Source: Gammaproteobacteria bacterium
GTDB taxonomy: Bacteria > Pseudomonadota > Gammaproteobacteria > Legionellales > Legionellaceae
NCBI GenBank assembly: GCA_026399205.1
Contig: JAPLRL010000007.1
Coordinates: 1 to 40,477, forward strand
Direction: 5' to 3'
Length of the DNA: 40,477 nt
Shown here: one piece after another, positions 629 through 31,959 of the stretch
How positions within the stretch are numbered: the stretch's first letter is position 1
How the letters are laid out: each line of letters begins with the position of its first letter
Made by a program: the position numbers and the translations under genes
Notes under the pieces: generated by a model
The model's database searches: none
The model's input: the letters and a program-made list of their open reading frames with translations, nothing else
What the model was told of the DNA's origin: nothing

Positions 629-1006
629 TTATGAGTCTTTAGTTGATACACAAAAATCCAGTATTCGCTATGAAACAATACGTGGGTCTGTCCCACTTAA
701 TTTCCTGGGTTGACCATCAGAGCGAATCTGTATCGATTTGATATCTTGCAATGGAATGGCAATGTTTTTAGAAAATACACCTGAAGCAATAGCTGATTTA
801 GGAATTTTAAAATAAATATGTCTCGCTTTTCTAGTTAAAATATCAATGGTCAACGTTTGCGGACTACGCAAACCATAACCAAACTCTATATGAGACCTTA
901 AATTTTTCGATGAGGGTAATGGCTTAAATTTATAGGTGACCTGATGATTAATCCATTGCCACCAATGACGCATCTTGTTCGCGTCCATAAGCCGCCTCAG
1001 ATGCAA
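629..1006 (-). pseudogene. Decayed second copy of the C-terminal HWWQW domain
   Basis: This stretch encodes a second copy of the domain that ends the gene at 948-2660. Conserved points are RHWWQWINHQV, PQTLTIDIL, KNIAIPLQDIKSI and DGQPRKLSGTDPR. It is out of frame with the preceding ORF. The parent frame reads ...YGREQ and then needs two more bases near 974 to continue as MRHWWQW. A second lesion lies at 668-670, where TAG stands in place of the tryptophan codon of the SWRILDF motif seen in the other copies; RILDF follows directly after the stop. Without both lesions the frame would run to a TAA at 629-631. I read this as a tandem domain copy that has been lost. Confidence 0.8.
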
Positions 1007-2660
1007 GTAGTTCAGCCAGAATTTCTTGATTATGTTTTCTGAGATTCATCGCAGGGACATTATTATTAAGCTTAAAATCCAGTATCCGCCAAGAAGTAAT
1101 CCGCGGATCAGTTGCACTTAATTTCCTAGGTTGAGCATCAGTACGTATCTGTACTGATTTTATTTCTTGCAGTGGAATAGCAATGTTTCTAGAAAAAACG
1201 CCCTCTGTTGCTCTGTTCTTAGGTATTTTGAATGAAATGCGAGTGTTTTTTGTAGTTAAAATACCAATAGTCAAAGTTTGTGGGTTACGCAAACCATAGC
1301 TAAATTCTATATGAGTCTTTAGATTCTTCGTTGAAGAAACCAATGGTTTAAATGTATAGGTTACCTGAGCGTTCACCCACTGCCACCAGTGCCGCCCATT
1401 TTCTTCCCTGTCATATGCGCCTGCAGATGAAGTCAATTCACGTTGAATGAATTCCCGACGAGAGTGAACGTTTTGTTTTGAAAGTGCCTGTTTCAGCTGA
1501 TTACCGTAATTAGAGAATCCATAAGAAAAGCGATTAACGTTGTAATCAACCATTTCAAGAATAATAATATCACTATTAACAATATCTCTTATAACTTGTT
1601 CTTGGATTGGCCGTGAATTTTTTTTAGGGATTTTTGAATTAACAATGTCTCTTTTTTGAAAGTAACTGGACATCACCATTTGATTGAATAGTTTAGTCTG
1701 CTCATACGCATAAAGGATTTGCGCTGAATAACTATCTCCAATAAATACAACATTTGGGTGCCAGCCAGTCTGTTTTTTTTCTAATGTGATGTGTGTCGGT
1801 TCTGTCGTTTTCTTTAATAGTCCAAAATCAGACCATAGGTTAAGTAATAAATAACCATCATTATTAACATTGTACAGAGGGGAATGAACTCGTTGAAAAG
1901 TGCCGCAGTTGAGTTGAGGAAGATTTGGAAGTACATGTTGAGCATTTACTATAATTCGACTTGCAATTATACAGCCAGCAGCAAAATTCCAATGTACGCC
2001 TGAAGCGGGATGTGTTTCTAATTTAATATTATGATTGAGTTGACGTAAAATTGGACCGGCATCTATTACATTAACACCAGTTGCTTTTAGAATATTCCCG
2101 AAGCTGACTGTTTTATTGAATAGGTGTTTATTTGTTCCTCCAAAAAGGTAGCGATTACCCAATTCTTCTGGATAAATGTAAGCTTTACTGCTTGCAATTA
2201 CAACTTGAAAAAACTTTCCTTGTGATGCTAGATATTTTTGTATTTCAAGTAATTTTTTGGCTTCAATTTCGTAGTTTTTTTCTAATTCACTTTTATGAGT
2301 AATCTCATAGTTGAGATAATCAATTGATAGGTTACTGTATAAACCGTGCTTGGGTGTCGTAACAATTTTAGTATTAGTGGTACGGAACAGCCGGTAATTG
2401 ATTTCATTGTAGGTTCGTACTAGTGTTGCTCTAAAGCCGAGATGGTGCTGGACGTATTTTTCAGACCAAGATTGCAAACTTTTATTAAAGAAGCCTTTCA
2501 AATAGTCATCCGGCTTATCTACAATAGGGGGCGTATAGCCATAAAGTGGTACTTCCGGACCAAACTCAAAAAGCCATTGTGCGCTTGGGATAAGCAACAT
2601 GATAATCAGAGAAGTTGAGAGCAGGACACCGACAATATGATTAAGTGAGCGCGCTATCAT
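948..2660 (-). CDS. AlgJ/AlgX-like SGNH O-acetyltransferase partner of MBOAT
   Basis: 570-residue protein with an N-terminal membrane anchor (about residues 9-30), which should place the rest in the periplasm. It has an SGNH/DHHW-type domain, with FIGDSYSAQI near residue 306 and GVHWN near 220 as the nucleophile and histidine regions. The residue two before that His is Gly, where AlgJ/AlgX usually have Asp. Such proteins work with an MBOAT acyltransferase to O-acylate exported polysaccharide. The MBOAT gene abuts directly upstream (TAA then ATG). Residues about 408-535 form an extra domain (HWWQWVN ... LSATDPR ... SWRILDF) also found on the GT2 enzyme at 4222-5526. After it the protein starts a second copy and then shifts frame, ending in an unrelated SLVAMD tail. 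A shorter paralogue lies at 26083-27270. Confidence 0.8.
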   Translation of the reverse strand: MIARSLNHIVGVLLSTSLIIMLLIPSAQWLFEFGPEVPLYGYTPPIVDKPDDYLKGFFNKSLQSWSEKYVQHHLGFRATLVRTYNEINYRLFRTTNTKIVTTPKHGLYSNLSIDYLNYEITHKSELEKNYEIEAKKLLEIQKYLASQGKFFQVVIASSKAYIYPEELGNRYLFGGTNKHLFNKTVSFGNILKATGVNVIDAGPILRQLNHNIKLETHPASGVHWNFAAGCIIASRIIVNAQHVLPNLPQLNCGTFQRVHSPLYNVNNDGYLLLNLWSDFGLLKKTTEPTHITLEKKQTGWHPNVVFIGDSYSAQILYAYEQTKLFNQMVMSSYFQKRDIVNSKIPKKNSRPIQEQVIRDIVNSDIIILEMVDYNVNRFSYGFSNYGNQLKQALSKQNVHSRREFIQRELTSSAGAYDREENGRHWWQWVNAQVTYTFKPLVSSTKNLKTHIEFSYGLRNPQTLTIGILTTKNTRISFKIPKNRATEGVFSRNIAIPLQEIKSVQIRTDAQPRKLSATDPRITSWRILDFKLNNNVPAMNLRKHNQEILAELLASEAAYGREQDASLVAMD

Positions 2661-4133
2661 TTAAAACCTAAAATAAAGGAAGGGTACGTCGTCAGAGCTA
2701 AAGATTGCCGCACATGACAGGATAAGTAAAGGAATGGTAAGTATAAAATGTAAGCTGAGAAATTTTACTCCTCCTGCATGAATGGTGTGCTGATTCCAAG
2801 CGGCGAGTATACTTTGCGGATGAGATATCGTGCTTTTTGAAGGGAGAGGTAAAGTGGCAAGTGATAAGGCGATGCATAAGGTAATGAGGGTTTGTGTGCT
2901 GAAAATCATTCCCCATGGGGTGATAGGTGATGTAGACGTGAGTCCAAATAAGAGAGATAGGTAGTTAATGGCATAGCTTAAGGATGGGGACCTAAAAAAC
3001 ACCCAACCAATCATGATGATGAAAAGGGTTAAAATTTGGCGAATGGCACTCGGCAGAATCAGTTTACTCAAGTGTTGAGATGCCATAAATAGGCGCTCTA
3101 TAGAAAGGAAAAAGCCATAGTAAGCCCCCCACACAACAAAACTCCAGCTGGCCCCGTGCCAAATCCCTGAAATTAAAAACACGATCCAAAGGTTAAGATA
3201 TGTTCGTGGAATGGAGACACGATTTCCACCGAGTGGGATATAAAGATAGATACGCATCCAGTTTGAGAGTGAAATATGCCAGCGATTCCAAAACTCTGTG
3301 ATGCTCTTTGAAGTGTAGGGGCGATTAAAGTTTTCAGGGAAACGAAACCCCATCATTCGACCTAAGCCAATAGCCATGTCGGAGTAGGCGGAAAAATCGA
3401 AATAAATTTGTAAAGTGTAGGAAAGTATTCCACCCCAAGCAAAAAGAGTAGAAATGTGATTGGGTGTAAAGCTAAAAATTTGGTCGGCGGCGCCACCTAA
3501 TGGATCAGCAATGAGGAGTTTTTTAATGAGGCCAATTGTAAAGCGAAAAAACCCGACCAGAAAGTCAGTTGCTGAGTGCTCTCGATAATGAATTTGTGTG
3601 CCAATGTCGTGATATCTAATAATAGGGCCAGCGATCAGCTGAGGAAAAAGAAAAATATAAAGCGCGCAATCAAAAAAGTGGCGAGGTGGAGTAGCTCGCC
3701 CCTTATAACTATCTACAAGATAGCTTATTTTATGGAAGGTAATAAAAGAAATACCTAAAATCAGTGGTAAATTTGGTGAAGTGATTTTGATATGAAGATA
3801 GGCCTCAAGAGGCAAAGTCAGTGCGGAGCAAATAAAGGTGAGGTATTTTGAAGAGATAAGTATGCCTGTGTTGATAATGATTGCAATTGATAAGACAAGA
3901 CATTTTGTTTTTTGTTTAAGTGCTGAATTGGGTGCGATGAGTAGAGAAATTCGATAGTCAATATAAGTGCTGATTATTAGTCCAAAAACAAATAAAGGCT
4001 CTCCCCATGCAAAAAATATGACGCTACCTAAGAGTGCCACACTATTTTTATAGGTATGACTTGGAAGCATGTAGTAGACCATGAAAAACAGTGGTAGAAA
4101 AAAGAATAAAAAAAGAGGGGTTGTGAATAGCAT
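2661..4133 (-). CDS. MBOAT family O-acyltransferase (AlgI-like)
   Basis: 490-residue polytopic inner-membrane protein of the membrane-bound O-acyltransferase family. Family landmarks are RYHDIG in the middle, WNRWHISLSNWMR, YIPLGGNR and the catalytic SGIWHGASW with its histidine near residue 326. The length matches AlgI. It should move acyl (usually acetyl) groups across the membrane for transfer to glycan by the SGNH protein encoded immediately downstream, whose ATG follows this stop codon with no gap. An 88-base gap separates it from the upstream GT2 gene. It is closely similar along its whole length to the MBOAT at 27271-28743, so the two are paralogues. The acyl group and the sugar acceptor cannot be told from sequence. 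Confidence 0.92.
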   Translation of the reverse strand: MLFTTPLFLFFFLPLFFMVYYMLPSHTYKNSVALLGSVIFFAWGEPLFVFGLIISTYIDYRISLLIAPNSALKQKTKCLVLSIAIIINTGILISSKYLTFICSALTLPLEAYLHIKITSPNLPLILGISFITFHKISYLVDSYKGRATPPRHFFDCALYIFLFPQLIAGPIIRYHDIGTQIHYREHSATDFLVGFFRFTIGLIKKLLIADPLGGAADQIFSFTPNHISTLFAWGGILSYTLQIYFDFSAYSDMAIGLGRMMGFRFPENFNRPYTSKSITEFWNRWHISLSNWMRIYLYIPLGGNRVSIPRTYLNLWIVFLISGIWHGASWSFVVWGAYYGFFLSIERLFMASQHLSKLILPSAIRQILTLFIIMIGWVFFRSPSLSYAINYLSLLFGLTSTSPITPWGMIFSTQTLITLCIALSLATLPLPSKSTISHPQSILAAWNQHTIHAGGVKFLSLHFILTIPLLILSCAAIFSSDDVPFLYFRF

Positions 4134-4221
4134 GCTTGAAATCTTATGACTATGTTTCTTGTATGTTTTGCAGCATAGCAGAGGAAATTGGACAATTCAA
4201 ACCATTATTTTGAATAGTGTT

Positions 4222-5526
4222 TTAATGAAGATCAAAATCCAATATCCGCCAAGATGCTACACGCGTATCTGCTATGCTCAACGGTGTAGATTGTCTGTCT
4301 GAGCTTATCGATATGGAAGATATGGTTCTCAGTGGAATAGCAAGGTGTTCAGAAAAAACACCTGCCAGTGCTTCCGAACTAGGAATGGTAAAGCTGATAC
4401 ATTCTGATTGCTCACTAAAGACATCAATTGTTAACGTTTGCGGATTACATAAACGATAACCAAATTCGATATGAGATTGATGATCCTGAGTCGAAATGGA
4501 GGATGGGGAAAATTCATATACCACCTTCTGATTTACCCACTGCCACCAATGATGCTCGTTTTGTTCACGGGGGTAAGCGCCTTCAGATGAAAGTAGCTCA
4601 AGCTGAGTCTTTTCACTACACTGATTGACAGTAGAATCATTTTTTTTCCAATGCCACGATGTGGAATAGAGCCATCCGCTGACTTGCTTTAAAACGGATA
4701 TGGGTATTTTTTTATTCCAATACAGTGAACTAATGATAGTTTGTAGAGATAGTTTTTTGATAAACAGAGCGGGGTTTTCTTCTCGATTTAATTTTTCCTC
4801 AACTACAGCATGGGCGTAATTATAAATCCATGTATGAGGTATATTTCCTAATTTATTTTTAATCATATCATTAATCTCAGCATGGGCTTTGATTCTAGCA
4901 TGTAGTGTTTTTGCTTCTGGGTATAATCTTGAGCCAGCTAGCTTTTTTGGTAAAAATGCAACTGATGCATCGGATTGGCTCAACCGTAGCCAATATTCAT
5001 AATCCATGCAGTATTGTAATGAGGCATCGAGCAGACCATGTTTTTCAAATACACGTCGCCTAAAGAACAAGGCTGGTTGAGAAATAAAGCAGACTTCAGG
5101 TAGACGTTTAGGGTTCCATGGCTCAGTTGGATAGGATTCAAAGGGGGTATTATGGACATCAATATGATCAGCTTCTCCATAAACGACATCAGTGTCTGGA
5201 TGGGTTTCAAAATAATCGAGCACCGTTTGTAGTGCACCGTGATAGTAGATGTCATCTGAATTGATCCAGCCGATGATGTCGCCACGGCTCGCTTCTATAC
5301 CTTTATTGACTGCGTGGGCTTGACCATTATCGGGTTCAGATGTCCAGTTGATGTGCGGCATCGTTTGAGCTGCAGTTTTTAGGATGTCAACGGTTTGGTC
5401 TTTGCTACCGCCATCCATCACAATGTGCTCCAAGTCTACGCTGATATTTTGGATGGCAACGCTTTGTAATGTTCGGAGAATATATGCACCTTGTTGATAT
5501 GATGGAGTGATGATACTAATTTTCAT
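4222..5526 (-). CDS. GT2 glycosyltransferase with C-terminal HWWQW domain
   Basis: 434 residues. Residues 1-230 are a GT-A fold family 2 glycosyltransferase, with ISIITPSYQQ at the start, VMDGGSKDQT near 37-46, and the nucleotide/metal site NSDD at 89-92. It should act in the cytoplasm on a nucleotide-sugar donor during chain assembly. Residues about 305-434 form an added domain (LSSEGAYPREQN, HWWQWVN, PQTLTIDV, SWRILDF) shared with the SGNH protein at 948-2660. The paralogue at 31051-31959 lacks this extension and is only about 300 residues, so the domain was gained here or lost there. The ATG has AAGGA upstream and overlaps the stop of the preceding GT4 gene by 11 bases, suggesting translational coupling. 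Confidence 0.88.
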   Translation of the reverse strand: MKISIITPSYQQGAYILRTLQSVAIQNISVDLEHIVMDGGSKDQTVDILKTAAQTMPHINWTSEPDNGQAHAVNKGIEASRGDIIGWINSDDIYYHGALQTVLDYFETHPDTDVVYGEADHIDVHNTPFESYPTEPWNPKRLPEVCFISQPALFFRRRVFEKHGLLDASLQYCMDYEYWLRLSQSDASVAFLPKKLAGSRLYPEAKTLHARIKAHAEINDMIKNKLGNIPHTWIYNYAHAVVEEKLNREENPALFIKKLSLQTIISSLYWNKKIPISVLKQVSGWLYSTSWHWKKNDSTVNQCSEKTQLELLSSEGAYPREQNEHHWWQWVNQKVVYEFSPSSISTQDHQSHIEFGYRLCNPQTLTIDVFSEQSECISFTIPSSEALAGVFSEHLAIPLRTISSISISSDRQSTPLSIADTRVASWRILDFDLH

Positions 5527-8150: not shown

Positions 8151-8193
8151 TGTATTCGGTTGATGTATTCGGTTGATGTATTCGGTTGATGTA
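8151..8193. repeat. 13-bp tandem repeat, three copies
   Basis: The unit tgtattcggttga occurs three times without mismatch (8151-8163, 8164-8176, 8177-8189) and is followed by four bases of a fourth copy. It lies in the divergent promoter region, about 200 bases before the wzm start. It could be a slippage product or a repeated protein-binding site; the sequence does not decide. Confidence 0.9.
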
Positions 8194-8317
8194 GAGAGCG
8201 AACTTTGATTGTGATAAAATAAACGCACGATAAGAAACGCTAGTCGAAGATACCGGATTATCGCGAGAGGTTGTGGCGGCGATTTAAACTTCACTGTACT
8301 TTCATGCTCAACGGATG

Positions 8318-8346
8318 GAGTTTCCTCGTTACGTTCGGGATGACGT
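8318..8346. repeat. Single arm of dispersed palindromic repeat (diverged)
   Basis: 29 bases resembling the repeat arm found at 9197, 11419, 39089 and 39299, ending in the hallmark cgggatgacgt. It is more diverged than the others. It lies upstream of the preferred wzm start. If the longer TTG-initiated frame were used, the arm would be translated in a different frame from the EIPRxARDDV reading seen elsewhere. Confidence 0.7.
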
Positions 8347-8387
8347 GCTTGGTTTACCTTGTAGTGATATTAATAACAGGAATAAAA

Positions 8388-9176
8388 GTGATTCAAACAG
8401 TTTGGCAGTACCGAGAATTTGTTTTAAGCAGCATTTTGAATGAATTAAAAATTCGTTTTTCTCGAAGCCGCTTAGGTTTTTTTTGGATGATTCTGCAACC
8501 TTTATTACAGGTTATGATTTATGCCTTTATTTTATCTAATGTTTTGAGCGCAAAATTACCTAATATGACGCATCAACATGCTTATGTGTTTTATCTCATG
8601 AGCGGTACAGTAGCATGGAGCTTGATTCAAGAGGTTGTGACGCGGTTTTTGACGTTGTTTATTGAGCAGGCTAATTTGATTAAAAAAATGTCTTTTCCAA
8701 AGTTGGTTTTGGTGGCGTCAGCTGCTGGGGTTGCTTTGTTAAATCATGTGATTTTATTTGTGGTGACAATTGGGATTTTGTTATTATTGGGGTTGCCGGT
8801 GGTGTGGCCGCTTTTGTTATTTATGCCTGTGCTGATGCTCATGTTGGCGGGGTTTGCGGTGGGGCTTGGGTTGGTGTTGGGTGTTTTAAATGTTTTTGTG
8901 CGTGATTTAGCTTATGTGGTGCCGATTTTGTTACAGCTTTTATTTTGGGCCACGCCGATTGTGTATCCTATCAGTATTTTGCCTCCTCAGTTGCAAGCGA
9001 TTGTGGCTTGGAACCCTATCTTGCCGATGATTCAGTCTTATCAGGATGTGATGTTGTATGGTCAGTTTCCTAGTGGGGTGGTTTTGTTGAAGTGTTTGGT
9101 GCTGAGTGTGATGTTTTTATCGATGGGGTGGATGGTGTTTCATCGGGCTAACGAAGAAATGGCGGATGTATTATGA
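8388..9176 (+). CDS. wzm: ABC-2 type polysaccharide export permease Wzm
   Basis: 262 residues with about six membrane segments and the ABC-2 permease layout of O-antigen exporters: an N-terminal cytoplasmic stretch with SRSRLGFFWMILQPL, then LSNVLSAKLP, and near the end LLQLLFWATPIVYPISILP. It forms the channel that exports lipid-linked polysaccharide together with Wzt. I chose the GTG at 8388 because ACAGGA precedes it by a few bases and the resulting protein begins like other Wzm proteins (IQTVWQYREFVL). The frame is open back to a TTG at 8271, but that extension is built on a dispersed repeat. The stop overlaps the wzt start as ATGA. Confidence 0.9.
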   Translation: MIQTVWQYREFVLSSILNELKIRFSRSRLGFFWMILQPLLQVMIYAFILSNVLSAKLPNMTHQHAYVFYLMSGTVAWSLIQEVVTRFLTLFIEQANLIKKMSFPKLVLVASAAGVALLNHVILFVVTIGILLLLGLPVVWPLLLFMPVLMLMLAGFAVGLGLVLGVLNVFVRDLAYVVPILLQLLFWATPIVYPISILPPQLQAIVAWNPILPMIQSYQDVMLYGQFPSGVVLLKCLVLSVMFLSMGWMVFHRANEEMADVL

Positions 9177-10504
9177 GGGATTGTTGCCAAATTGAGGAGA
9201 TCCCTCGCTGCGCTCGGGATGACGTGGAAGGCGCTATGATGACAGAGGATGGTGCCGTGATGATAGATGAAGTGGATACGATGCCGGTTTTAAAAGTAGA
9301 AAACCTCGGGAAATCTTATCCTGTTTACCGATATGATTGGCAGCGTGCGGCCCGTTGGTTTGGGGTTTCTTTTAAGCCTCTCAGACATCAATGGGTGTTA
9401 CGTCATTTGAATTTTGAAGTTAAGCGTGGTGAGGCCATTGGGGTTGTGGGGCAAAATGGTGCGGGTAAAAGCACTTTGCTGAAACTCTTAACAGGGGCAT
9501 TGAAGCCTAGTGAAGGCTGTGTCACTAAAGTGGGGCGTGTGTCAGCTATTTTAGAGCTGGGTATGGGGTTTAATTATGAATTGACTGGGCGACAAAATGC
9601 TTATTTTGCGACTCAGTTGATGGGGTTAAGTCGTCGTGAGGCGAAACGCCTCTTACCTGAAATTGCGGCGTTTTGTGAAATTGGGGATTATTTTGATCAG
9701 CCGATGCGAACCTACAGTAGTGGGATGCAGATTCGAGTTGCCTTTGCGGTGGCGACGGCTTATCGGCCTGATTTGTTGATTATCGATGAAGCGCTCTCTG
9801 TGGGGGATGCTTATTTTCAGCATAAGAGCTTTAGTCGGATTCGTGAATTTCACGAACAGGGGACGACATTGTTTTTTGTTTCTCATGATAAAGAATCTGT
9901 ACAAGCCCTTTGTGATCGAGCTATTTTTTTACAAGATGGCGGGATCATGTTGGATGGCACGCCTGAAGAAGTGTTTGACTATTATAATGCGGCTATTGCC
10001 GAGCGCGAGAACCAAACTGTGCGGTTGAGCCAGTTAGCCAATGGTAAAACTCAGACGGTGTCTGGGACGGGGCAGGCGCGTGTGCAAGAGATTAACTTAT
10101 TGAATAGTCTGGGTGAGGCGGTTGAGTGTATTGCTGTGGGTGAGGCGGTGACCTTGCGTGTTAAAGTGAAGGTTTTTGAACCCATTGAGACGTTGGTGCT
10201 GGGATATGGCATTAAAGATAATCTTGGTCAGATGATGTATGGAACAAATACTTGGTACACGGGTCAGATGATGAAACAGTTAGAGGCTGGACAAGTTTAT
10301 ACGTTTAGCGTTTCTTTTTCGGCAAACTTGGGTGTGGGTAGTTATTCTATTGTTACGGCTTTGGCTGCGAGTTATACCCATTTAAGTATTAATTATGAAT
10401 GGATTGATATGGCCCTTTTATTTAGTGTAATGAATAAGAATAAAATTACCTTTCAAGGAAACTGTTGGATTGATTCTCAAGTGGATATTGTTAGAGAGTT
10501 ATGA
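9173..10504 (+). CDS. wzt: ABC transporter ATPase Wzt with C-terminal glycan-binding domain
   Basis: 443 residues. An ABC ATPase domain covers about residues 40-270, with Walker A GQNGAGKST, signature YSSGMQIRVA and Walker B LLIIDEALSVGD, followed by the switch histidine in FVSHD. Residues about 295-443 look like the Wzt C-terminal beta-sandwich that recognises the non-reducing end of the O-chain, which links export to chain termination. The ATG at 9173 overlaps the wzm stop. The first 35 or so residues are odd: they include EIPRCARDDV, the translation of a dispersed repeat arm at 9197-9225, inserted between the coupled start and the real ATPase start. Internal ATGs at 9237, 9240 and 9261 are alternative starts. 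Its stop overlaps the next start as ATGA. Confidence 0.92.
   Translation: MRDCCQIEEIPRCARDDVEGAMMTEDGAVMIDEVDTMPVLKVENLGKSYPVYRYDWQRAARWFGVSFKPLRHQWVLRHLNFEVKRGEAIGVVGQNGAGKSTLLKLLTGALKPSEGCVTKVGRVSAILELGMGFNYELTGRQNAYFATQLMGLSRREAKRLLPEIAAFCEIGDYFDQPMRTYSSGMQIRVAFAVATAYRPDLLIIDEALSVGDAYFQHKSFSRIREFHEQGTTLFFVSHDKESVQALCDRAIFLQDGGIMLDGTPEEVFDYYNAAIAERENQTVRLSQLANGKTQTVSGTGQARVQEINLLNSLGEAVECIAVGEAVTLRVKVKVFEPIETLVLGYGIKDNLGQMMYGTNTWYTGQMMKQLEAGQVYTFSVSFSANLGVGSYSIVTALAASYTHLSINYEWIDMALLFSVMNKNKITFQGNCWIDSQVDIVREL
9197..9225. repeat. Repeat arm inside wzt 5' end
   Basis: 29-base arm ending ctcgggatgacgt, almost identical to the arms at 11419-11447 and 39299-39327. It lies within the translated 5' end of wzt and reads EIPRCARDDV in frame. 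No opposite arm is present nearby, so this is a solo half of the palindrome. Confidence 0.85.
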
Positions 10505-12051: not shown

Positions 12052-12103
12052 CTGCTCATTGGCAGCTAAAATTAAATTAACAATTTCGAGCGGGTGTCAA
12101 TCA

Positions 12104-12394
12104 ATGTTACTTCAAGAGCTCCATGCAAAAAAAAAAGAAATTCTTTCGTTAGCAACTGAATATGGTGCCCGTAGAATACGAATTTTTGGTTCGGTTGCAA
12201 GAGGCGAGGAACACTCTGACAGTGATATTGATTTTCTCGTGGATTTCCCTCAAGGCTATGACCTCTTTACTCAACGTATGCCACTATGTGAACAATTGAT
12301 GAAACTAACTGGTAGAAAAGTAGATCTTGTCCCAGAGCATGAGTTAAATCGCCATCTTCGCGACGCAGTTTTGAAGGAAGCAAAGAGTCTATGA
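12104..12394 (+). CDS. mntA: MntA-like nucleotidyltransferase antitoxin
   Basis: 96 residues from the ATG at 12104. The core is a minimal nucleotidyltransferase with IFGSVARGEEHSDSDIDFLVDF, which carries the GSxxRG...SDxD pattern with both metal-binding aspartates. In MntA/HepT modules this protein neutralises the HEPN toxin by adding AMP to a tyrosine near the toxin's active site. The frame is open to an ATG at 12044, but those 20 residues overlap the glycosyltransferase stop and do not resemble the family, so I prefer the later start. The next ATG overlaps this stop (ATGA), giving the usual antitoxin-first order. It is unrelated to sugar metabolism and looks like an inserted module. Confidence 0.88.
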   Translation: MLLQELHAKKKEILSLATEYGARRIRIFGSVARGEEHSDSDIDFLVDFPQGYDLFTQRMPLCEQLMKLTGRKVDLVPEHELNRHLRDAVLKEAKSL

Positions 12395-17033: not shown

Positions 17034-17414
17034 ATGACAACTCAGCAACAGCTGTTTAATTATATATTAGTTGGTGGCATAAATACCATCTTAGGTTATT
17101 TGGTATATGCATTTTGCATTTTTTTGGGTATGGATTACCCATTGGCCGCATTTTTTTCTACCGTTTTTGCCGTCATATTTAACTATAAGACAGTAGGTAA
17201 GTTTGTTTTTAAAAATACGGGTAATGGTATTTTTGTAAAATTCATGTTGATGTACTTGGTGATGTATTTGTTTAATATGGCATTCATTAAATTTATTTAT
17301 TTTTTTAATCAAAATCTTTATTTGGCAGGGTTCATTGCAATATGTCCAGCAGCAACACTCTCGTTTATTTTAAATAAATTTATTGTGTTTAGAGATGTGT
17401 GTGAGGCTAATTAG
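17034..17414 (+). CDS. GtrA family membrane protein
   Basis: 126 residues with four predicted membrane segments. It matches the GtrA family by its opening NYILVGGINTILGYLVYA, by YKTVGKFVFK and by the ending LNKFIVF. GtrA proteins are thought to flip undecaprenyl-phosphate-linked sugars to the periplasm, acting with a GtrB-type transferase. That partner follows 29 bases later at 17444. A third component, a periplasmic GT-C transferase, is not adjacent. Confidence 0.88.
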   Translation: MTTQQQLFNYILVGGINTILGYLVYAFCIFLGMDYPLAAFFSTVFAVIFNYKTVGKFVFKNTGNGIFVKFMLMYLVMYLFNMAFIKFIYFFNQNLYLAGFIAICPAATLSFILNKFIVFRDVCEAN

Positions 17415-17443
17415 AGTGTGTCTATGGAGCGGTTTGAAATAAA

Positions 17444-18415
17444 ATGAGTCAAAATTCAAGTGTCACCCTATCGGTCGTCTTGTCATTTTACAATGAAGCA
17501 AACGTATTACCTGAGCTCTTAAAACGCTTAAGATCAGTTGGTGAGCGGTTAGTAAAAGAACAGGACATTAAGAATTATGAACTCATTTTTGTAAATGACA
17601 ATTCTATGGATGAGTCTGAAGCCTATTTGCGTTCAGAACTTAAACACGGTGACATCGTGTTAGTTAATATGAGTCGGAATTTTGGGGTTTCAGAATGTGT
17701 GATGGCTGGGATGAAGTGTGCAAAAGGAGATGCGGTAGTCTACATGGATTCTGATTTGCAGGATCCGCCTGAAGTGATTATTGAGTTAATTCGAGCTTGG
17801 AAAAAAGATCCAGAAGTCGAAGTTGTCTATACGACGCGAACACGAAGAAAAGGTGAACATCCTCTTAAACTTTGGGTTACAAAGATGGGATATCGCTTGA
17901 TTAATGGTATTTCAGACATTCAATTGCCTGTAGATTCCGGCGATTTTAAATTGCTTTCTCGACGAGTTGTTGACCAGCTATTGGTCTTAAATGAAGATAA
18001 GCCTTATATTCGAGGATTAGTGAGTTGGATTGGATATAAGCAAACCCAAGTTTTTTATGAGCGAGATGCTCGCTTTGATGGTAGAGAAAACACTAAGATG
18101 CCGGTTTTTAGCAAGCGAGTGATTTACTATTGGCTGGATAGAGCCCTAATTTCTTTTTCTGATGCACCATTAAAAATTATTTTATTATTCGGATTTTTAT
18201 TATCGAGCGTGTCATTGCTTTATATTTTAATTGTATTAGCTCAAAAACTCCTTGGTTGGGCCGTGCCGGGTTGGGCCGCACTGATGTGTGCAGTTTTGTT
18301 GCTGGGCGGCACGCAGATGGTGATGTTGGGGTTTATTGGATTGTATATCGGGGCAATATTCCGCGAGACTAAAAAAAGACCTCAGTATTTAGTGAAGGAA
18401 GTGTTAAGAAAGTAA
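17444..18415 (+). CDS. GtrB/DPM-like polyprenyl-phosphate glycosyltransferase
   Basis: 323 residues. The GT2 domain has SVVLSFYNEANVL, FVNDNSMDES, MSRNFGVSE and the metal site DSDLQDPPE near residue 104. Two C-terminal membrane helices (about 240-265 and 275-305) are followed by FRETKKRPQY, as in GtrB and ArnC-type enzymes. It should transfer a sugar from a nucleotide donor to undecaprenyl phosphate, and GtrA would flip the product for periplasmic attachment to the O-chain. The donor is unknown. Confidence 0.9.
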   Translation: MSQNSSVTLSVVLSFYNEANVLPELLKRLRSVGERLVKEQDIKNYELIFVNDNSMDESEAYLRSELKHGDIVLVNMSRNFGVSECVMAGMKCAKGDAVVYMDSDLQDPPEVIIELIRAWKKDPEVEVVYTTRTRRKGEHPLKLWVTKMGYRLINGISDIQLPVDSGDFKLLSRRVVDQLLVLNEDKPYIRGLVSWIGYKQTQVFYERDARFDGRENTKMPVFSKRVIYYWLDRALISFSDAPLKIILLFGFLLSSVSLLYILIVLAQKLLGWAVPGWAALMCAVLLLGGTQMVMLGFIGLYIGAIFRETKKRPQYLVKEVLRK

Positions 18416-19577: not shown

Positions 19578-19580
19578 TTA

Positions 19581-22578: not shown

Positions 22579-22583
22579 ATCAA

Positions 22584-23285: not shown

Positions 23286-23301
23286 GCGAATAGGTCACAC
23301 A

Positions 23302-23940: not shown

Positions 23941-23952
23941 AAAGGAAAAATC

Positions 23953-24901: not shown

Positions 24902-26110
24902 ATGAAAACATATGACTTTATAATTATAGGCGCCGGCATAGTTGGAATGACCGTGGCCTATGAATTACGTCAACGTTATCCTAAAGCCTCTATCGCAATA
25001 TTAGATAAAGAAGCTAAAGTCGGCGTTCACGCAAGCGGTCGTAATAGCGGCGTGTTGCACAGCGGTATTTATTATACAAACGATACCTTAAAAGCCAAAG
25101 TTTGTGCCACTGGTGCTGCGAAAATGATGGCTTTTGCGCAAACCCATCAAATTCCCTATGCCAAGTCAGGTAAAATTATTTTAGCGACGTCTGAACATCA
25201 ACTCCCCGTTCTTGATCGGTTGATGAAAAATGCGCGTGAAAATGGGATTAATGCAATAAAAATCAGTGGAGATGAGGCGTTAAAAATTGAGCCACATGCA
25301 GCACTGGGGCCTGCGGCTATATACTGCCCTGATACGGCTGTCATTGATAGTCTCGCTGCTTTAACAAAGCTGCAAGCCTTACTTGAGAAACAAGGGGTTT
25401 GTTTTCATTTTCAGTGTCAGATGACAGGGCTAAAGCAATTCAATCAACTAGAAACACGGCAGGGTCTATTTTCTTTTGGGTTTCTTTTTAATTGCGCAGG
25501 AGCATATGCAGATACCCTGGCTCGTTATTTTGGGCTGGCTCAGGATTATATGCTCATTCCTTTTAAGGGAATATATTGGAAGTTAAGCTCAGAGGCAAAC
25601 TCACTGATTCATTCAAATATTTATCCTGTTCCTGATGTTTCCTTGCCTTTTTTGGGTGTTCATCTCACAAGAGTGATCAATGGGGATGTTTACGTGGGTC
25701 CGACGGCTATCCCGGTTTTTGGAAGGGAAAATTATCATCACGTTAAGGGATTGAAACTGAAGGAAGCGTTCGGTATAGGGGCTACATTGGCGCGTTTGTA
25801 CATGGAAAACCAGAATAACTTTAGACTACTTGCGCATACAGAATTATTAAAATATCGAAAATCAGTTTTCTTGTCTTCAGCACAACAACTGTTACCTTCG
25901 TTGCGTGCGATAGATTTGATTCCTACCCCTAAAAGTGGTATTCGGCCTCAGTTGATGAATATTAAAACTAAGAAATTAGAAATGGATTATATTTTTCAAA
26001 AAACAGATTGTTCTGTGCATGTTTTAAATGCGATTTCGCCTGCGTTTACCAGTTCGTTTGAATTTGCTCGGATAATTGTAGATCAAAGTGAAGCATGTTT
26101 TAAAAAATAG
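24902..26110 (+). CDS. FAD-dependent oxidoreductase, LhgO-like
   Basis: 402 residues. FAD site IIGAGIVGMTVAYEL at the N-terminus, the family marker SGRNSGVLHSGIYY near residue 46, FNCAGAYAD in the middle, and a C-terminal substrate domain. It resembles L-2-hydroxyglutarate oxidase and related hydroxy-acid oxidases. In a nucleotide-sugar operon it may instead oxidise a sugar or branched-sugar hydroxyl, a guess based only on context. It starts 11 bases after the previous stop. Its 3' end overlaps the 3' end of the convergent minus-strand gene by 28 bases. Confidence 0.78.
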   Translation: MKTYDFIIIGAGIVGMTVAYELRQRYPKASIAILDKEAKVGVHASGRNSGVLHSGIYYTNDTLKAKVCATGAAKMMAFAQTHQIPYAKSGKIILATSEHQLPVLDRLMKNARENGINAIKISGDEALKIEPHAALGPAAIYCPDTAVIDSLAALTKLQALLEKQGVCFHFQCQMTGLKQFNQLETRQGLFSFGFLFNCAGAYADTLARYFGLAQDYMLIPFKGIYWKLSSEANSLIHSNIYPVPDVSLPFLGVHLTRVINGDVYVGPTAIPVFGRENYHHVKGLKLKEAFGIGATLARLYMENQNNFRLLAHTELLKYRKSVFLSSAQQLLPSLRAIDLIPTPKSGIRPQLMNIKTKKLEMDYIFQKTDCSVHVLNAISPAFTSSFEFARIIVDQSEACFKK

Positions 26111-27270
26111 TCTGCAAAGCCATAAGTTAACCAGCTGGTTACGTTATAATCAACCATTTCCAAGATAATGATATCGCTTTTTTCAATATCTTTTAATATG
26201 CTTTGTTGCACAGGGTTCTCTTTGTTGTTTTTTATTTGTAGACTGGGTATGACTGTGCGTGTTTTAAAATAACTAGATACAACTAACTTTTCTGGCATTT
26301 TTATTTGATTTAAGATGAATTGGATTTGATCGGAAAAACTATCTCCAATGAGGACTATTTTGGGATGCCAGGGAGAGTGTTTATCAATCGAAATCAGATG
26401 TGAGGGGTAGGGGGTGGGTCTTAATAATTTAGCGCTGGACCAGATATTTAATAATGAATATCCATCTACGTCGACATCATATCCTGGGGGCAGTCGTGGT
26501 TCGGAGTGACCGCAATCAAGTTTTGACATGTTTGAAAATTGCTGTGATGAATTTTCTATGATGTGTTGTGCAATAATACACGCAGCGTAGTAGTTCCAGT
26601 GTAGCCCTGATATTGGATGTGTTTCGATGTGAGATGTTCGAGTAAGATGCCGTAATAGAGGGCCAGCGTCTATGACATTGACGCCCGTGGCTTTTAAGAT
26701 ACGACCAAAATTGGCGGTTCTTTTAAAAACATGGTGAGCACCATGAACTAAATAACGTTTACCTAATTCCTTAGGATAAATATAAGCTTTGCTACTAGCT
26801 AAAACTACGATAAAAAATTTATTTTTTGAAGCAAGGTCATGCTGAATTTTTAGTAATTTGTTAGCTTCCAATGTGTACCGATTTTCAAGTGTTTCTTTTT
26901 GAATCATTTCTTGATTTAAGCTATCAATGGACAGGTTGCTATAAAGGCCATGATGCGGTGTGGTGGTTAGTTTTAACCTGGTATTATTCACTTCATGAAA
27001 GAGTCTAAAATTAAGTTCATTATAGGAGCGAATAAAATAGGCTCGAAACCCGAGGTGTGTATTAAAAAATTTCTCTATCCATTGTTGTAGACTTTTATCA
27101 AAAAAAGCAGAGCGGTAATGAATGGGCTTATTGGGGACGGGATCAGTATAGCCATATAATGTTTTTTCCCGAATAAGATGGGTTCGCCATTGAATCAATG
27201 GGGCAAGCAGGAATAACACGATGAGTATGGAATAGATGACACCTAAGTTTCGGCGAAGCAGGTTTATCAT
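26083..27270 (-). CDS. AlgJ/AlgX-like SGNH partner, C-terminally short
   Basis: 395 residues, paralogous to the first 390 or so residues of the protein at 948-2660. It has an N-terminal membrane anchor, LYGYTDPVPNKP, LYSNLSID, SGLHWNYYA as the His region and LIGDSFSDQI as the Ser region, ending EMVDYNVTSWLTYGFADYF. It lacks the extra C-terminal domain of its paralogue. The stop lies inside the convergent oxidoreductase gene, so the end probably was reset by a rearrangement. The MBOAT gene abuts upstream. It should complete O-acylation with that MBOAT. Confidence 0.82.
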   Translation of the reverse strand: MINLLRRNLGVIYSILIVLFLLAPLIQWRTHLIREKTLYGYTDPVPNKPIHYRSAFFDKSLQQWIEKFFNTHLGFRAYFIRSYNELNFRLFHEVNNTRLKLTTTPHHGLYSNLSIDSLNQEMIQKETLENRYTLEANKLLKIQHDLASKNKFFIVVLASSKAYIYPKELGKRYLVHGAHHVFKRTANFGRILKATGVNVIDAGPLLRHLTRTSHIETHPISGLHWNYYAACIIAQHIIENSSQQFSNMSKLDCGHSEPRLPPGYDVDVDGYSLLNIWSSAKLLRPTPYPSHLISIDKHSPWHPKIVLIGDSFSDQIQFILNQIKMPEKLVVSSYFKTRTVIPSLQIKNNKENPVQQSILKDIEKSDIIILEMVDYNVTSWLTYGFADYFLKHASL

Positions 27271-28743
27271 TTAGAACCTAAAATAAAGAAAGGGGACATA
27301 ATCCGAGCTGACTATAGCAGCGGCAGATAATGAGAGAAGAGAGAGAGTCAATATAAACTGATAGTTGAGTGCTTTGATGCCGCTGATTTCCATGTTTTCA
27401 GTCCATGCCGCTTGAATCTGAATGTTATTCATGATTTTGGGGAGGGGGATGGTAACGAACGCAAGGAGGGAGCCAAGCATCATTGTTGTAATGGCTTGGT
27501 TCGTAAAAATGCTGCCCCAGGGTAAGACCGGATGATCTGCATGAGCGAAACCACACAAGATGCTTATATAGTGAAGCGCCTCATGGAGCGTTGCGGCACG
27601 AAAAAAGACCCAGCCTATCATGATAATAAAAAGGGTGATGATTTGTTTCATGATGTGAGGTAAATAAAGTTTTTTCCCCCACCGACTGGTGTTAAACACC
27701 CGCTCCAGGCATAGAAAAAATCCATAATACCCCCCCCAAATAACAAAATTCCAGCTTGCACCATGCCAAAATCCTGAAATTAAAAATACAACCCAGAGGT
27801 TAAGATAGGTTTTGGGGATAGACACTCGGTTTCCACCCAGTGGGATATAGAGATAAAGCCGCATCCAATTAGAGAGTGAGATGTGCCAGCGACGCCAAAA
27901 GTCTGTGATACTACGAGCGGTATATGGGCGATTAAAATTTTCCGGGAAACGAAACCCAATCATGCGCCCCAAGCCAATAGCCATGTCAGAATAACCTGAA
28001 AAATCGAAGTAAATCTGTAGGGTATAGGCCAAAATACCCCCCCAGGCGAATAGAAAAGACAATTCATGGGTTGGAAGAGAGAAAACTTGATCAGCAATCA
28101 ATCCCAGTGGATCTGCAATGAATAGCTTCTTTAATAACCCAATGGAAAAGCGAGTGAAGCCAACAATAAAGCCATCAGCCGTATGCTTGCGATTTTGCAG
28201 TTGCATGCCAATGTCGTGATAGCGAATAATGGGGCCTGCGATGAGCTGTGGAAAAAGAAAGATATAAAGTGCGCAGTCAAAAAAATGTCGAGGTGGAGTG
28301 GCTCGACCTTTATAACTGTCAACGAGATAACTTATTTTATGAAAAGTAATAAAAGAAATCCCTAAAATAAGTGGGAAATTCGGTTGAGTCATTGTTAAGT
28401 TAAAATAAGTATGTAAGGGGCCGAAGCATTGGGCGTAGATAAAATTGAGATATTTTGAACCAATGAGGATGCAGGTATTGAGTACAATAGCGATGGATAA
28501 TAGTATTAATTTGATGTGTTGTTTAACAGAAGAATGGGGCTCGATGAATTTAGAGATGTGGTAATCAATATAGGTGGTTAAAACTAAGATAAATACAAAG
28601 ATAGGTTCGCCCCAAGCAAAAAATAAGATACTTCCCAAAAGTGCAACAGTATTTTTTGAGGAAGTATGGTTGGGCGCTAGATAATAAGCGGATAAAAACA
28701 CGGGTAGAAAAAAAAATATAAAAAAAGGTGATGTAAATAGCAT
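27271..28743 (-). CDS. MBOAT family O-acyltransferase, operon B copy
   Basis: 490 residues, the same length as the paralogue at 2661-4133 and alike throughout, including FRRWHISLSNWM-type and YIPLGGNRVSIP motifs and the catalytic GFWHGASWNF with His near 327. It is polytopic and resides in the inner membrane. Its stop abuts the ATG of the SGNH partner. A 28-base gap separates it from the 760-residue membrane protein upstream. Two MBOAT/SGNH pairs suggest either two acylation sites or redundancy. Confidence 0.92.
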   Translation of the reverse strand: MLFTSPFFIFFFLPVFLSAYYLAPNHTSSKNTVALLGSILFFAWGEPIFVFILVLTTYIDYHISKFIEPHSSVKQHIKLILLSIAIVLNTCILIGSKYLNFIYAQCFGPLHTYFNLTMTQPNFPLILGISFITFHKISYLVDSYKGRATPPRHFFDCALYIFLFPQLIAGPIIRYHDIGMQLQNRKHTADGFIVGFTRFSIGLLKKLFIADPLGLIADQVFSLPTHELSFLFAWGGILAYTLQIYFDFSGYSDMAIGLGRMIGFRFPENFNRPYTARSITDFWRRWHISLSNWMRLYLYIPLGGNRVSIPKTYLNLWVVFLISGFWHGASWNFVIWGGYYGFFLCLERVFNTSRWGKKLYLPHIMKQIITLFIIMIGWVFFRAATLHEALHYISILCGFAHADHPVLPWGSIFTNQAITTMMLGSLLAFVTIPLPKIMNNIQIQAAWTENMEISGIKALNYQFILTLSLLSLSAAAIVSSDYVPFLYFRF

Positions 28744-28771: not shown

Positions 28772-31054
28772 TCATAGTTGATTGATGTCCTTTTGACAAA
28801 TCGTTGTCATGTTTGTAATAGAAAACTTAACTTCTCTGGGATCTCCTTTAGACAGTCTTTCAGGTTTTCCATCTGCTATCAGCTGTAATATATAATGATC
28901 TGATCGGGTCATGATCCATGGTGTTTCAAAGTGTTGCTCGCCAGCAATCGTGGGTAGCACATATTGCGCCATCAGTTTCCCTGAGCGATGCTTTAGGTTG
29001 ACCGTTATTTTTCTTGGGTAGGGGAAAGCAGTGATCTTAAAGGCAAATTTAATTTTTTTGGGTGTGCCTACACTAGAGTAGTAATAACTAATGGTGTTTG
29101 AAACCCAGGTCCGTCTTGGTTCTTCATTGTTTTTTACAGTAACGTAATCCCCCATTGTTTTTTGTAAATTAATAAAATTATAAGGGGCTGATTGTATTAA
29201 AAATGGTTTTAAGTGCATATTGAGATGACCACAAGCATTGCTTCGATAATCCATAGTGATTAACTTTTTGGCTTTATCTAGTGGCATGTGTTTATCTTTG
29301 ATCGGTAGCAACCTTATAATATATCCATCATCACGATAGTCACTGGATAGTTTTTTATCATATAGAATATAGGCCAGCATTTGTCGGAGTTTTTGGTGTT
29401 CCGATGTCAATGTGATGTGAATGATGTCCGAGTTTGGGGGCAGAGCTAACGCGTTACGTAATTGTAGTAATTGAGTAAAGGGGTTTTTCTGTTGTTCAGT
29501 ATCTTCAATAAATTGACGATTGAGCGTGCGCGAAACGAAAACGCATTGAAAAATGAGGCCAAGCAACATTGCACTGAGGTAAGTTATCAGTAAAAAAGAT
29601 CTTAATTTTTTATAATCTTTCCAGAGTACACTGATGCCGATGCCGACGAGTGCTAATGAAAACGGGGTGGCATAGTTGGAAATTTTATATTGCAAAAACG
29701 TATGGCCTACTTCGGTAGAATTGATACTGGGTATAAAATATCTTAATTTTATAAACACTAGTAATAAAATAAACTGAATACAAAAGATAAGTCGTAATAC
29801 TAAGTTTCTTTTTTGTTCGGAAAGAATGAAACGAAGAAGAATACAGCATAAGATAATCAATGCAACTGGAAATAGATAGCAACTCACAACGCTATCAAAT
29901 CGATAGGGCATATTCACAAAATCGCACTTCATTCCAAAAGTGTGTGCTAAATACTGGATGGGTGACCACGGCACAGTCCACCCGATTTTTACATGCGCAT
30001 TAGATATGAAGAGGGTGAGGAGAAAGCTTTTTATGATTCGAATGCCTTCATAATTAATTAAAATCAAGGTTTCGATGCTATAGAGTGCTAAAAAAAGAGA
30101 AAGTTGTTTTATTGCGTTTCTATTGGCTAATCCGGTAATGATAAAAAATATTCCTAAGGCTGCCGCAAACAGTGGGCATGGTTCGTTATAAGCAAATAAC
30201 AATGCTGCAGAGCAGATGGAGAGGGGGAGACAATAGATTGCCGTTTTTTGAAGCGAACATCGATGGTTAATCATCGATCGTGTCACTAAGGGAACAAGGG
30301 CGCACAGGCCAGTGGCTAATGCAAGACCCCAGGTTTGCGCGTAAAAACCCCATTGCGCACTATACAGATATCCGTTGAGTGAAAAAGCGGGTAAAGCCGC
30401 CAAAGACAAAATGACTGTTTTTGGTGCCGCAGTGACTTGCCGGATGATTCCCCCGATGGACAGACAGCCTGTGACAAAACCAAGAGCTATCGTTGGGATA
30501 TAGGCATAATAGGACCATTTCAATGAAAAAAGAGATTGTACAAATCCCAATAAAAAGCTCGCTCCCATGCGTAAGCCATGCACTTGATAAAGCATAATCT
30601 GAGTAAGATAAGGATGAAATCCTGAGGCAATTGCCTTTTCAGAAAAAGCATGTTCTTGTAGCCATTGTCCGTGTGCCAAATAAGTAAAGATATCAGTATA
30701 AGGACTGTATCCATGATAGAGGATAATGGGAGCAAGGATGGGGAGTGCACAAACAATCGAGAATAGGCAAATTTGAGCCCACGCCTGAAATGCGTGTACT
30801 CGGTTTTTTTCATACCAAATTGAAAGAAACATGATCGAAACGATGATCATCAGCGTGTAATGAAACTTGAATGGGGAAAACCATCCATATCCAGTCGAAA
30901 TTAAAATAAGAGCAGCTGCACCAAGGATGGGGGAGACATAAAATCCGATTGATTCACAGATGGCCTGGGGTAATAAATCAACAATTCGGCGGCCAATAAG
31001 GGTACAGATGAGTAACAGTAACCATAAATAAATCATGGTTGTTAAGTAATTCAA
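28772..31054 (-). CDS. Large polytopic membrane protein, GT-C-like, with C-terminal accessory domain
   Basis: 760 residues. Residues 1-500 hold about a dozen membrane helices, with an acidic loop YSPYTDIFTYLAHGQWL (Asp 121) between early helices, the layout of GT-C transferases that use polyprenyl-linked sugar donors. Residues about 640-755 form a soluble, probably periplasmic, tail that resembles the accessory domain of operon A: TWVSNTISYYY, PRKITVNL and DGKPERLSKGDPR match HWWQWVN..V.Y.F, PQTLTI and DGQPRKLSGTDPR. There is no operon A counterpart to this gene. Its start overlaps the GT2 stop (ATGA). A GT-C transferase is the best guess; a polymerase or other transporter is possible. Confidence 0.65.
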   Translation of the reverse strand: MNYLTTMIYLWLLLLICTLIGRRIVDLLPQAICESIGFYVSPILGAAALILISTGYGWFSPFKFHYTLMIIVSIMFLSIWYEKNRVHAFQAWAQICLFSIVCALPILAPIILYHGYSPYTDIFTYLAHGQWLQEHAFSEKAIASGFHPYLTQIMLYQVHGLRMGASFLLGFVQSLFSLKWSYYAYIPTIALGFVTGCLSIGGIIRQVTAAPKTVILSLAALPAFSLNGYLYSAQWGFYAQTWGLALATGLCALVPLVTRSMINHRCSLQKTAIYCLPLSICSAALLFAYNEPCPLFAAALGIFFIITGLANRNAIKQLSLFLALYSIETLILINYEGIRIIKSFLLTLFISNAHVKIGWTVPWSPIQYLAHTFGMKCDFVNMPYRFDSVVSCYLFPVALIILCCILLRFILSEQKRNLVLRLIFCIQFILLLVFIKLRYFIPSINSTEVGHTFLQYKISNYATPFSLALVGIGISVLWKDYKKLRSFLLITYLSAMLLGLIFQCVFVSRTLNRQFIEDTEQQKNPFTQLLQLRNALALPPNSDIIHITLTSEHQKLRQMLAYILYDKKLSSDYRDDGYIIRLLPIKDKHMPLDKAKKLITMDYRSNACGHLNMHLKPFLIQSAPYNFINLQKTMGDYVTVKNNEEPRRTWVSNTISYYYSSVGTPKKIKFAFKITAFPYPRKITVNLKHRSGKLMAQYVLPTIAGEQHFETPWIMTRSDHYILQLIADGKPERLSKGDPREVKFSITNMTTICQKDINQL

Positions 31055-31959
31055 GCGTCTCTCCTTAGATACATAAAGCGACTAGTCACAGGCGTTTTGA
31101 TCAGCCAATCATAGATTGTTTTTATTAAAGTGACAGAGAGCTTTCTATTCCAATAGATTGAGCTTAACAGTGTGTGGTAAGTTAACATGATCCGAAATAA
31201 ACAGGGATGTTGTTTTCCATCCATTTTTTGTTCAATGACAGCATGTGCATAATGATAAAGCCACTTGTCTGGTACGCTATTGAACTTTTCTTTCAGCATG
31301 TCATTAATTTCAGCATGCGCCTTGGCTTTTTGATGCATGGTTTTTGTTTCTGCATAAAGGCGAGATCCTGCAAGTTTTTTTTGAAGAAACATAACAGAAG
31401 CATTGGCTTTGCTTAAACGCAGCCAGTATTCATAGTCCATGCAGTATTGAAGGGAGTCGTTGAGTAGGCCATATTTTTCAAAGACACGTCGCCTAAAAAA
31501 GACAGCGGGTTGGCAGAAGTAACAGGTCTCAATGAGTCGCTCGTGGTCCCATGGTTCGGTCGGATAGGTCTCAAAAGGTAGGTCGTTTGTATTAATATGA
31601 TCGGCTTGGCCATAGACGACATCACAATCTGGATGGGCGTTAAAAAAGTCTAGGACACGTTGTAAAGTACCTTGATAGTAAATGTCGTCAGAATTTAGCC
31701 ATCCAATGATGTCACCACTGCTTGCTTGAATGCCTTTATTGACGGCATGGGCTTGACCGTTGTCGGGTTCAGATAGCCACTTGAGATGTGGCATGGATTG
31801 GGCGGCTTCTTTGAGAATAGAAACCGTTTGATCATGACTGCCTCCATCCATGACGATATGTTCTAGCTCGGCATCTACTTTTTGGAAAGCAACGCTTTGT
31901 AAAGTTCTGAGGATGTAGGGATCTTGTTGATACGATGGGGTGATGATACTAATTTTCAT
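31051..31959 (-). CDS. GT2 glycosyltransferase, operon B copy without accessory domain
   Basis: 302 residues from the ATG at 31959, which matches the paralogue's start (KISIITPSYQQ). It has VMDGGSHDQT and the site NSDD, then QPAVFFRRRVFEKYGLL. It parallels the first 300 residues of the protein at 4222-5526 but lacks the C-terminal HWWQW domain. The start overlaps the upstream GT4 stop by 11 bases, exactly as in operon A. An earlier in-frame ATG at 31992 is less likely. Confidence 0.88.
   Translation of the reverse strand: MKISIITPSYQQDPYILRTLQSVAFQKVDAELEHIVMDGGSHDQTVSILKEAAQSMPHLKWLSEPDNGQAHAVNKGIQASSGDIIGWLNSDDIYYQGTLQRVLDFFNAHPDCDVVYGQADHINTNDLPFETYPTEPWDHERLIETCYFCQPAVFFRRRVFEKYGLLNDSLQYCMDYEYWLRLSKANASVMFLQKKLAGSRLYAETKTMHQKAKAHAEINDMLKEKFNSVPDKWLYHYAHAVIEQKMDGKQHPCLFRIMLTYHTLLSSIYWNRKLSVTLIKTIYDWLIKTPVTSRFMYLRRDA

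Follow-up and report, generated by a model that had tools for sequence, protein, structure and literature searches.

The stretch of DNA analysed here, called the window, is 40,477 nucleotides long and is contig C84 of a 2.3 Mb Legionellaceae genome. Its genes are predicted to encode ABC-type O-polysaccharide export, with Wzm and a Wzt that carries a Wzt_C domain. Two paralogous gene blocks can also be seen in the window: a left one, GT4-GT2-MBOAT-SGNH, and a right one, GT4-GT2-GT-C-MBOAT-SGNH. Their GT4 proteins are 57% identical (the other identities are given in Table 1). In the left block, a C-terminal module is found on the GT2 and the SGNH protein; in the right block, it is found on the GT-C protein only. 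Since Wzm, Wzt with Wzt_C, GtrA, and a GtrB-like GT2 are all present, synthesis of the O-polysaccharide probably takes place in the cytoplasm and is followed by export and then by decoration, probably by the GT-C protein and the MBOAT/SGNH pair. The GtrB-like GT2, which has two C-terminal transmembrane (TM) segments, is a candidate maker of the lipid-linked donor for the GT-C protein.

Table 1. Genes and module copies in the window (TM segments from a hydropathy scan, not a trained topology predictor)
Feature	Position	Strand	Remarks
SGNH hydrolase-like (AlgX-like) protein, host 1	948..2660	-	one N-terminal TM segment
GT2 glycosyltransferase, host 2	4222..5526	-	Pfam Glycos_transf_2 E 7e-25; no TM segment
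GT-C-like polytopic membrane protein, host 3	28772..31054	-	12 hydrophobic segments found; no Pfam family
MBOAT acyltransferase, partner of SGNH host	2661..4133	-	Pfam MBOAT E 1.4e-35
Paralogous SGNH protein without module	26083..27270	-	body 51% identical
Paralogous MBOAT	27271..28743	-	66% identical
Paralogous GT2 without module, directly upstream of GT-C host	31051..31992	-	body 67% identical
Wzm permease and Wzt ATPase with Wzt_C glycan-binding domain	8271..10504	+	Pfam ABC2_membrane E 3.3e-16; Wzt_C E 6.2e-33
GtrA-like flippase and GtrB-like GT2	17034..18415	+	Pfam GtrA_DPMS_TM E 7e-15; Glycos_transf_2 E 3.8e-27
Module copy 1, C-terminal part of SGNH (AlgX-like) protein	1065..1451	-	SGNH residues about 405-532
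Broken tandem module copy 2	about 641..1013	-	frame change and one TAG
Module copy, GT2 C-terminus	4225..4605	-	GT2 residues 308-434
Diverged module copy, end of GT-C-like protein	28793..29173	-	GT-C residues 628-754

The window has other features as well. The coding sequences of Wzt and of a GT4 contain, in frame, the interspersed repeat GAGATCCCTCGCTTCGCTCGGGATGAC (9197-9223, 11419-11445, 11433-11518, and 39299-39325), which in the GT4 gene continues into a perfect 18-bp tandem array of 4.8 units. The genome has 21 exact copies of the repeat, several of which form close inverted pairs, and 0 copies of the reversed control. Just upstream of Wzm is a perfect 13-bp tandem repeat of 3.3 units (8151-8193). 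At 12044-12720, what we take by eye to be a nucleotidyltransferase-like small gene is followed by a small gene that looks like its HEPN-type partner; the two may be a toxin-antitoxin pair within the O-antigen locus. The cluster at 18576-24891 presumably resembles a GDP-heptose-type pathway (kinase, isomerase, and nucleotidyltransferase), and its order is partly kept beside the module-bearing GT-C genes of loci L035 and L062.

The original prediction was that the SGNH protein, the GT2, and the GT-C-like protein end in one common segment. This is confirmed: the three carry a homologous C-terminal module of about 125 residues, as the profile searches below establish. A second copy after the SGNH protein had been described as broken, and it is interrupted by both a frame change and a stop codon. 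It starts within the last ~20 codons of ORF 948-2660, the frame shifts ahead of the HWWQW motif, and the remainder, with its one in-frame TAG, lies in ORF 668-1006. It is 72% identical to SGNH copy 1. The earlier finding, with its start at 1075, leaves out this copy because of where the copy lies. Just downstream, at 135-461, is an ORF that looks like the start of an IstB (IS21-type) helper ATPase, and the 3' end of the SGNH gene may have been damaged by transposition. A fourth intact copy ends a GT2 on contig C35 of the same genome. The usual Glu and the first Trp are missing from the GT-C copy of the window, whose identity to the SGNH and GT2 copies of its own genome is no higher than 15-18%.

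A profile of the three own-genome SGNH and GT2 copies reaches the GT-C copy at just E 0.094, so relatives are needed to prove its homology. A profile made only of GT-C copies from other genomes, without window sequences, recovers all four window copies (GT-C at E 7.7e-31, SGNH at 8.8e-19, GT2 at 2.5e-16, and the broken copy at 2.7e-14), and the next window ORF follows only at E 1.1. In another run, a GT-C-only profile finds the SGNH copy at E 5.5e-8, the broken copy at 3.1e-8, and the GT2 copy at 1.3e-4. In the opposite direction, a profile of the SGNH, GT2, and single-TM copies alone reaches the window GT-C copy at E 3.7e-4, its sole above-noise match besides its own members and the broken copy. 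When the GT-C-type profile is aligned with the SGNH/GT2/single-TM-type profile by hhalign, the result is 96% (E 4.9e-9, 121 columns). The two sequence types are connected by the GT-C copies of relatives, chiefly that of G096, a GT-C tail with SGNH/GT2-like motifs. The claim of a diverged module on the 760-residue membrane protein is borne out by these last searches.

Outside this genome, the module is rare. The widest profile finds it in 7 of 112 genomes of the family and 1 of 398 genomes of the phylum, the latter being its own genome. An earlier profile matched 3 of 297 genomes in the phylum of a Bryobacterales genome, all with GT-C proteins bearing two tandem module copies each. It also matched 8 of 186 relatives, two of which (G042 and G090, partial, E 0.007-0.008) were dropped as chance, and 2 of 369 genomes of the class, one of which (G385, partial, E 0.0037) was dropped likewise. 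SGNH hosts occur in the window and G068; GT2 hosts in the window and on C35; and a first kind of GT-C host in the window, G001, G008, G093 (twice), G096, G477, and G719. The search for other hosts added a second kind of GT-C protein (G556 and G045) and a 196-residue single-TM protein in G068. The nearest named relatives of the window GT-C protein are from Legionella maceachernii and from Legionellaceae and Legionellales MAGs. A scan of genome contigs with domain patterns found no relative, and one with the GT-C family gave eight loci. Two of these GT-C relatives (L039 and L040) end before the module, and their genomes have no module at all; the C-terminus of a Planctomycetales relative (L042), read by eye, looks beta-rich. 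No plasmid sequence matched the SGNH protein, the G096 copy, or the Bryobacterales copies.

Most module copies lie in a glycan-locus setting. For example, judged by similarity to window proteins, the gene order in G719 is Wzm-Wzt-GT4-GT-C, Wzt and MBOAT are near the module in G068, and Wzt is near it in G045. One L. maceachernii copy (L036) adjoins methionine-metabolism genes, not a glycan locus. Upstream of the single-TM module protein, at L060:881-3334, is an 818-residue glycosyltransferase protein whose tail, of a different type, also looks beta-rich by eye.

The module had been described as beta-rich, and the AlphaFold2 models of the SGNH and GT-C copies (pLDDT 86.0 and 89.8) are nearly all beta-strand. 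Both predicted models resemble the beta-sandwiches of carbohydrate-binding modules (CBMs) and can be assigned to that fold, so the two modelled segments do not fall into different folds. The models were built from one set of nine aligned copies, and their agreement is therefore not independent. The best PDB chain for the SGNH model is 7t7y, a CBM8 (Z 9.4, rmsd 3.0, 117 aligned), and 25 of the 50 matches listed have carbohydrate- or xylan-binding titles, 10 of those 25 being one protein. For the GT-C model, the best chain is 8hhv (Z 11.5, rmsd 2.7, 118 aligned), and the porphyran CBM 8xmz scores Z 10.7 (rmsd 2.8, 110 aligned). Chains 7zvo, 7t7y, 2w5f, 3jxs, 2xom, and 8zqf are common to both match lists. 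Foldseek gave the SGNH model a best E of only 1.5e-3. The CBM-like fold is also found in non-sugar domains and in lectin-like receptor-binding domains, and lectin-like domains of other proteins reach similar scores, so that sugar binding is suggested by the fold but not proved by it. In a viral structure library, Foldseek found five matches at E < 0.001 (query TM-scores 0.35-0.52), namely a neck protein, a tail fibre, and three uncharacterised phage proteins. In a set of 17 copies, which come from two phyla and sit on several types of host, W25, D115, and R117 are invariant and Y13, E16, and W23 nearly so.

No Pfam-A, NCBIfam, or PHROGs model covers the module. It had been said to belong to no named family, and in these three collections that is so; a distant link to DUF7024 (PF22895) had been missed. 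Several weak matches were rejected as chance because they fell under the cut-off or were inconsistent between members. These include bPH_2 and CDC24_OB1 in Pfam scans of the segments, Lipocalin_10 (E 0.0046) and others on further segments, SpvA and VanW-B (E 0.027-0.092), two PHROGs (E 0.012-0.094), and an unrelated RimP SH3 match on the ORF 668-1006 protein. Three matches in a PDB sequence search with the module (E 0.11-0.42) were also rejected, and the same search with the Bryobacterales copy gave none. Pfam CBM models matched no module segment. The literature searched, from which subscription journals were largely absent, contained no description of the module in titles or abstract starts, nor the name DUF7024.

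By sequence comparison, the closest named relative of the module is DUF7024, a distant one with detectable common ancestry. DUF7024 is the C-terminal domain of OpgB/MdoB and other GT-C proteins, and the module shares with it the position at a GT-C C-terminus, a similar length, and a similar spacing of the G...E..W.W and D.R motifs. When bridging sequences are included, hhalign scores the module against DUF7024 at 83.9-93.2% (scores 36.7-44.3, permuted maxima 14.7-22.6). With all copies, the figures are 93.2% and 44.3, against at most 22.6 in 100 column permutations; without G556, they fall to 58.5% and 30.9 (permutations at most 23.0), and a first comparison with fewer sequences gave 3.8%. When the tails of G556 and G045 are left out of the module profile, it still matches them at E 7e-10 to 6e-9; a DUF7024 profile matches them at E 2.6e-4 to 0.07. 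The GT-C body of G556, a module bearer, is homologous to that of L028, a DUF7024 bearer (27.6% over 515 aa, E 4e-36). The Pfam DUF7024 model itself matches 7 of 112 family genomes, but it has no match in the module's own genome, nor at E 10 in the four own-genome segments and the further segments tried. As the profile comparison is positive and the Pfam model negative, the module is best described as a distant sister of DUF7024 and not a Pfam-defined member. DUF7024 also occurs on GT4-type enzymes (L033 and L075). A protein of 1739 residues at L075:4895-10111, in which two DUF7024 domains are combined with several GT4-like parts, adjoins a module-bearing GT-C gene. In G008, a DUF7024 GT-C adjoins a GT4 that by eye resembles that at window 6745-7944, and in a plasmid collection a DUF7024 query matches the C-terminus of opgB-annotated genes.

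The module is detachable, since paralogues without it are present in the same window. It has also moved between hosts, because the SGNH copies do not form one clade (constraint rejected, AU p 5e-44). In a tree built from 18 copies, those of the window SGNH protein and GT2 and the broken one cluster with the C35 GT2 copy (92/99), and the SGNH and single-TM copies of G068 cluster together (94/98), neither branch being starred. In keeping with this, identity within a genome across hosts is 53% (window SGNH-GT2) and 62% (G068 SGNH-single-TM), and that between the SGNH copies of the window and G068 is 22%. The window GT-C copy clusters with GT-C copies of other genomes, which argues against a simple one-ligand rule; constraining the first-kind GT-C copies to one clade gives AU p 0.32. 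A candidate origin by fusion, in which the GT-C body was deleted between GT2 and module, fits the GT2-then-GT-C order of the right block and G096.

Known systems provide precedents for glycan binding. In the available part of the report on the GT136 enzyme ORF12 of Citrobacter youngae O1, a beta-domain after the last TM helix pulls down unmodified ABC-exported O-antigen, and the enzyme works without this CBM, which is dispensable under the conditions tested (PMC11127046). Compared by description, the GT136 CBM, at ORF12 residues 503-652, is like the GT-C module in being beta-rich, periplasmic, C-terminal, and on a GT-C that acts on ABC-exported O-antigen; unlike the module, it has no GT2 or SGNH hosts reported in that part (PMC11127046). 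AlgX, according to the portion available, is an SGNH domain followed by a C-terminal CBM (PMC4148444). The SGNH host has the same architecture, an SGNH domain and then a predicted beta-sandwich, and it matches Pfam ALGX at E 1.9e-5 (bits 24.9, under the cut-off of 26.5); however, a search of PDB sequences with the module profile recovers no AlgX chain at E 10. Wzt bears a cytoplasmic CBM, as the accessible text states (PMC11231755). This Wzt_C domain (PF14524), present on the window's own Wzt, is like the module a glycan-recognising domain in the same kind of locus, but module copies do not match its Pfam model.

With moderate confidence, the module can be seen as a detachable accessory beta-sandwich of the CBM type, a distant relation of DUF7024, that most likely binds the strain's O-polysaccharide and keeps its hosts on the polymer. 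The predicted shape is that of sugar-binding modules, and the module therefore probably holds enzymes on the sugar chain that they build or decorate. The original prediction called a glycan-binding or complex-forming role plausible. The former now has support from the predicted fold and from close precedents; the binding itself stays at the level of a suggestion. The conserved residues, the glycan-locus setting, and the within-genome likeness across hosts favour it as well. Against it are the non-sugar domains that share the fold, one L. maceachernii copy outside a glycan locus, and the relatives at L039 and L040 that lack the module.

If O-polysaccharide is the ligand, the module of the GT2 would hold this enzyme on the polymer in the cytoplasm during assembly. 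Wzm and Wzt would then export the polymer to the periplasm, where the module would keep the GT-C protein on it, as well as the SGNH O-acetyltransferase, which its MBOAT partner would feed. The prediction that the module is not tied to one compartment fits the hydropathy scan: the GT2 has no hydrophobic segment, the SGNH and G068 single-TM hosts have one N-terminal segment each, and the GT-C copy comes after the last such segment of its host, which would place it in the periplasm. As ABC-pathway O-polysaccharide is present on both faces of the inner membrane, a polymer-binding module could be used on both sides. One polymer may be the common ligand of the copies, although the loss of the conserved Glu and first Trp from the window GT-C copy, and its low identity to the SGNH and GT2 copies, count against this. 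A stronger version, which we hold only tentatively, is that the module is a strain-specific address tag, an O-polysaccharide-recognising domain copied among unrelated enzymes of one locus and evolving with the glycan of the strain and not with the host enzyme. If true, enzymes on both inner-membrane faces recognise the same polymer.

The module could instead be a docking domain that, by attaching to a common partner protein or to other copies of the module, brings GT2, SGNH/MBOAT, and GT-C together in a glycan-assembly complex. Its presence on unrelated hosts of one operon would suit this, as would the adaptor-like G068 protein, in which the module stands alone on a single-TM anchor, and within-genome likeness is also expected from a shared partner. 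However, with hosts on either side of the inner membrane, a single soluble partner cannot serve them all; among the close fold matches, many bind sugar; and related GT-C proteins and paralogous GT2 and SGNH proteins exist without the module. Docking is, on balance, rather unlikely. Less probable still is a passive role, in which the module caps its hosts for folding or stability, was passed on by gene fusion, and has no ligand of its own. That several relatives of the hosts lack the module, that the GT136 enzyme works without its CBM (PMC11127046, available part), and that the window has a broken copy and, on the GT-C protein, a degenerate one all agree with a cap, but three residues invariant across two phyla and several host types, as well as repeated tandem duplication, do not. 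Chance or convergence of beta-rich sequence, which the low identity of the GT-C copy and the E of 0.094 might have suggested, has next to no probability, as independent profiles reaching E 1e-16 to 1e-31 and the hhalign result refute it and the SGNH and GT-C copies share a predicted fold.

The finding extends the range of glycan-binding-like modules in bacterial surface-sugar synthesis by an unnamed family that is linked to the OpgB domain DUF7024. Since module-bearing copies stand beside module-free paralogues, the role of the module is testable within one genome. If its ligand is the O-polysaccharide, one domain family would bring the enzymes of cytoplasmic assembly and those of periplasmic decoration to the same polymer.
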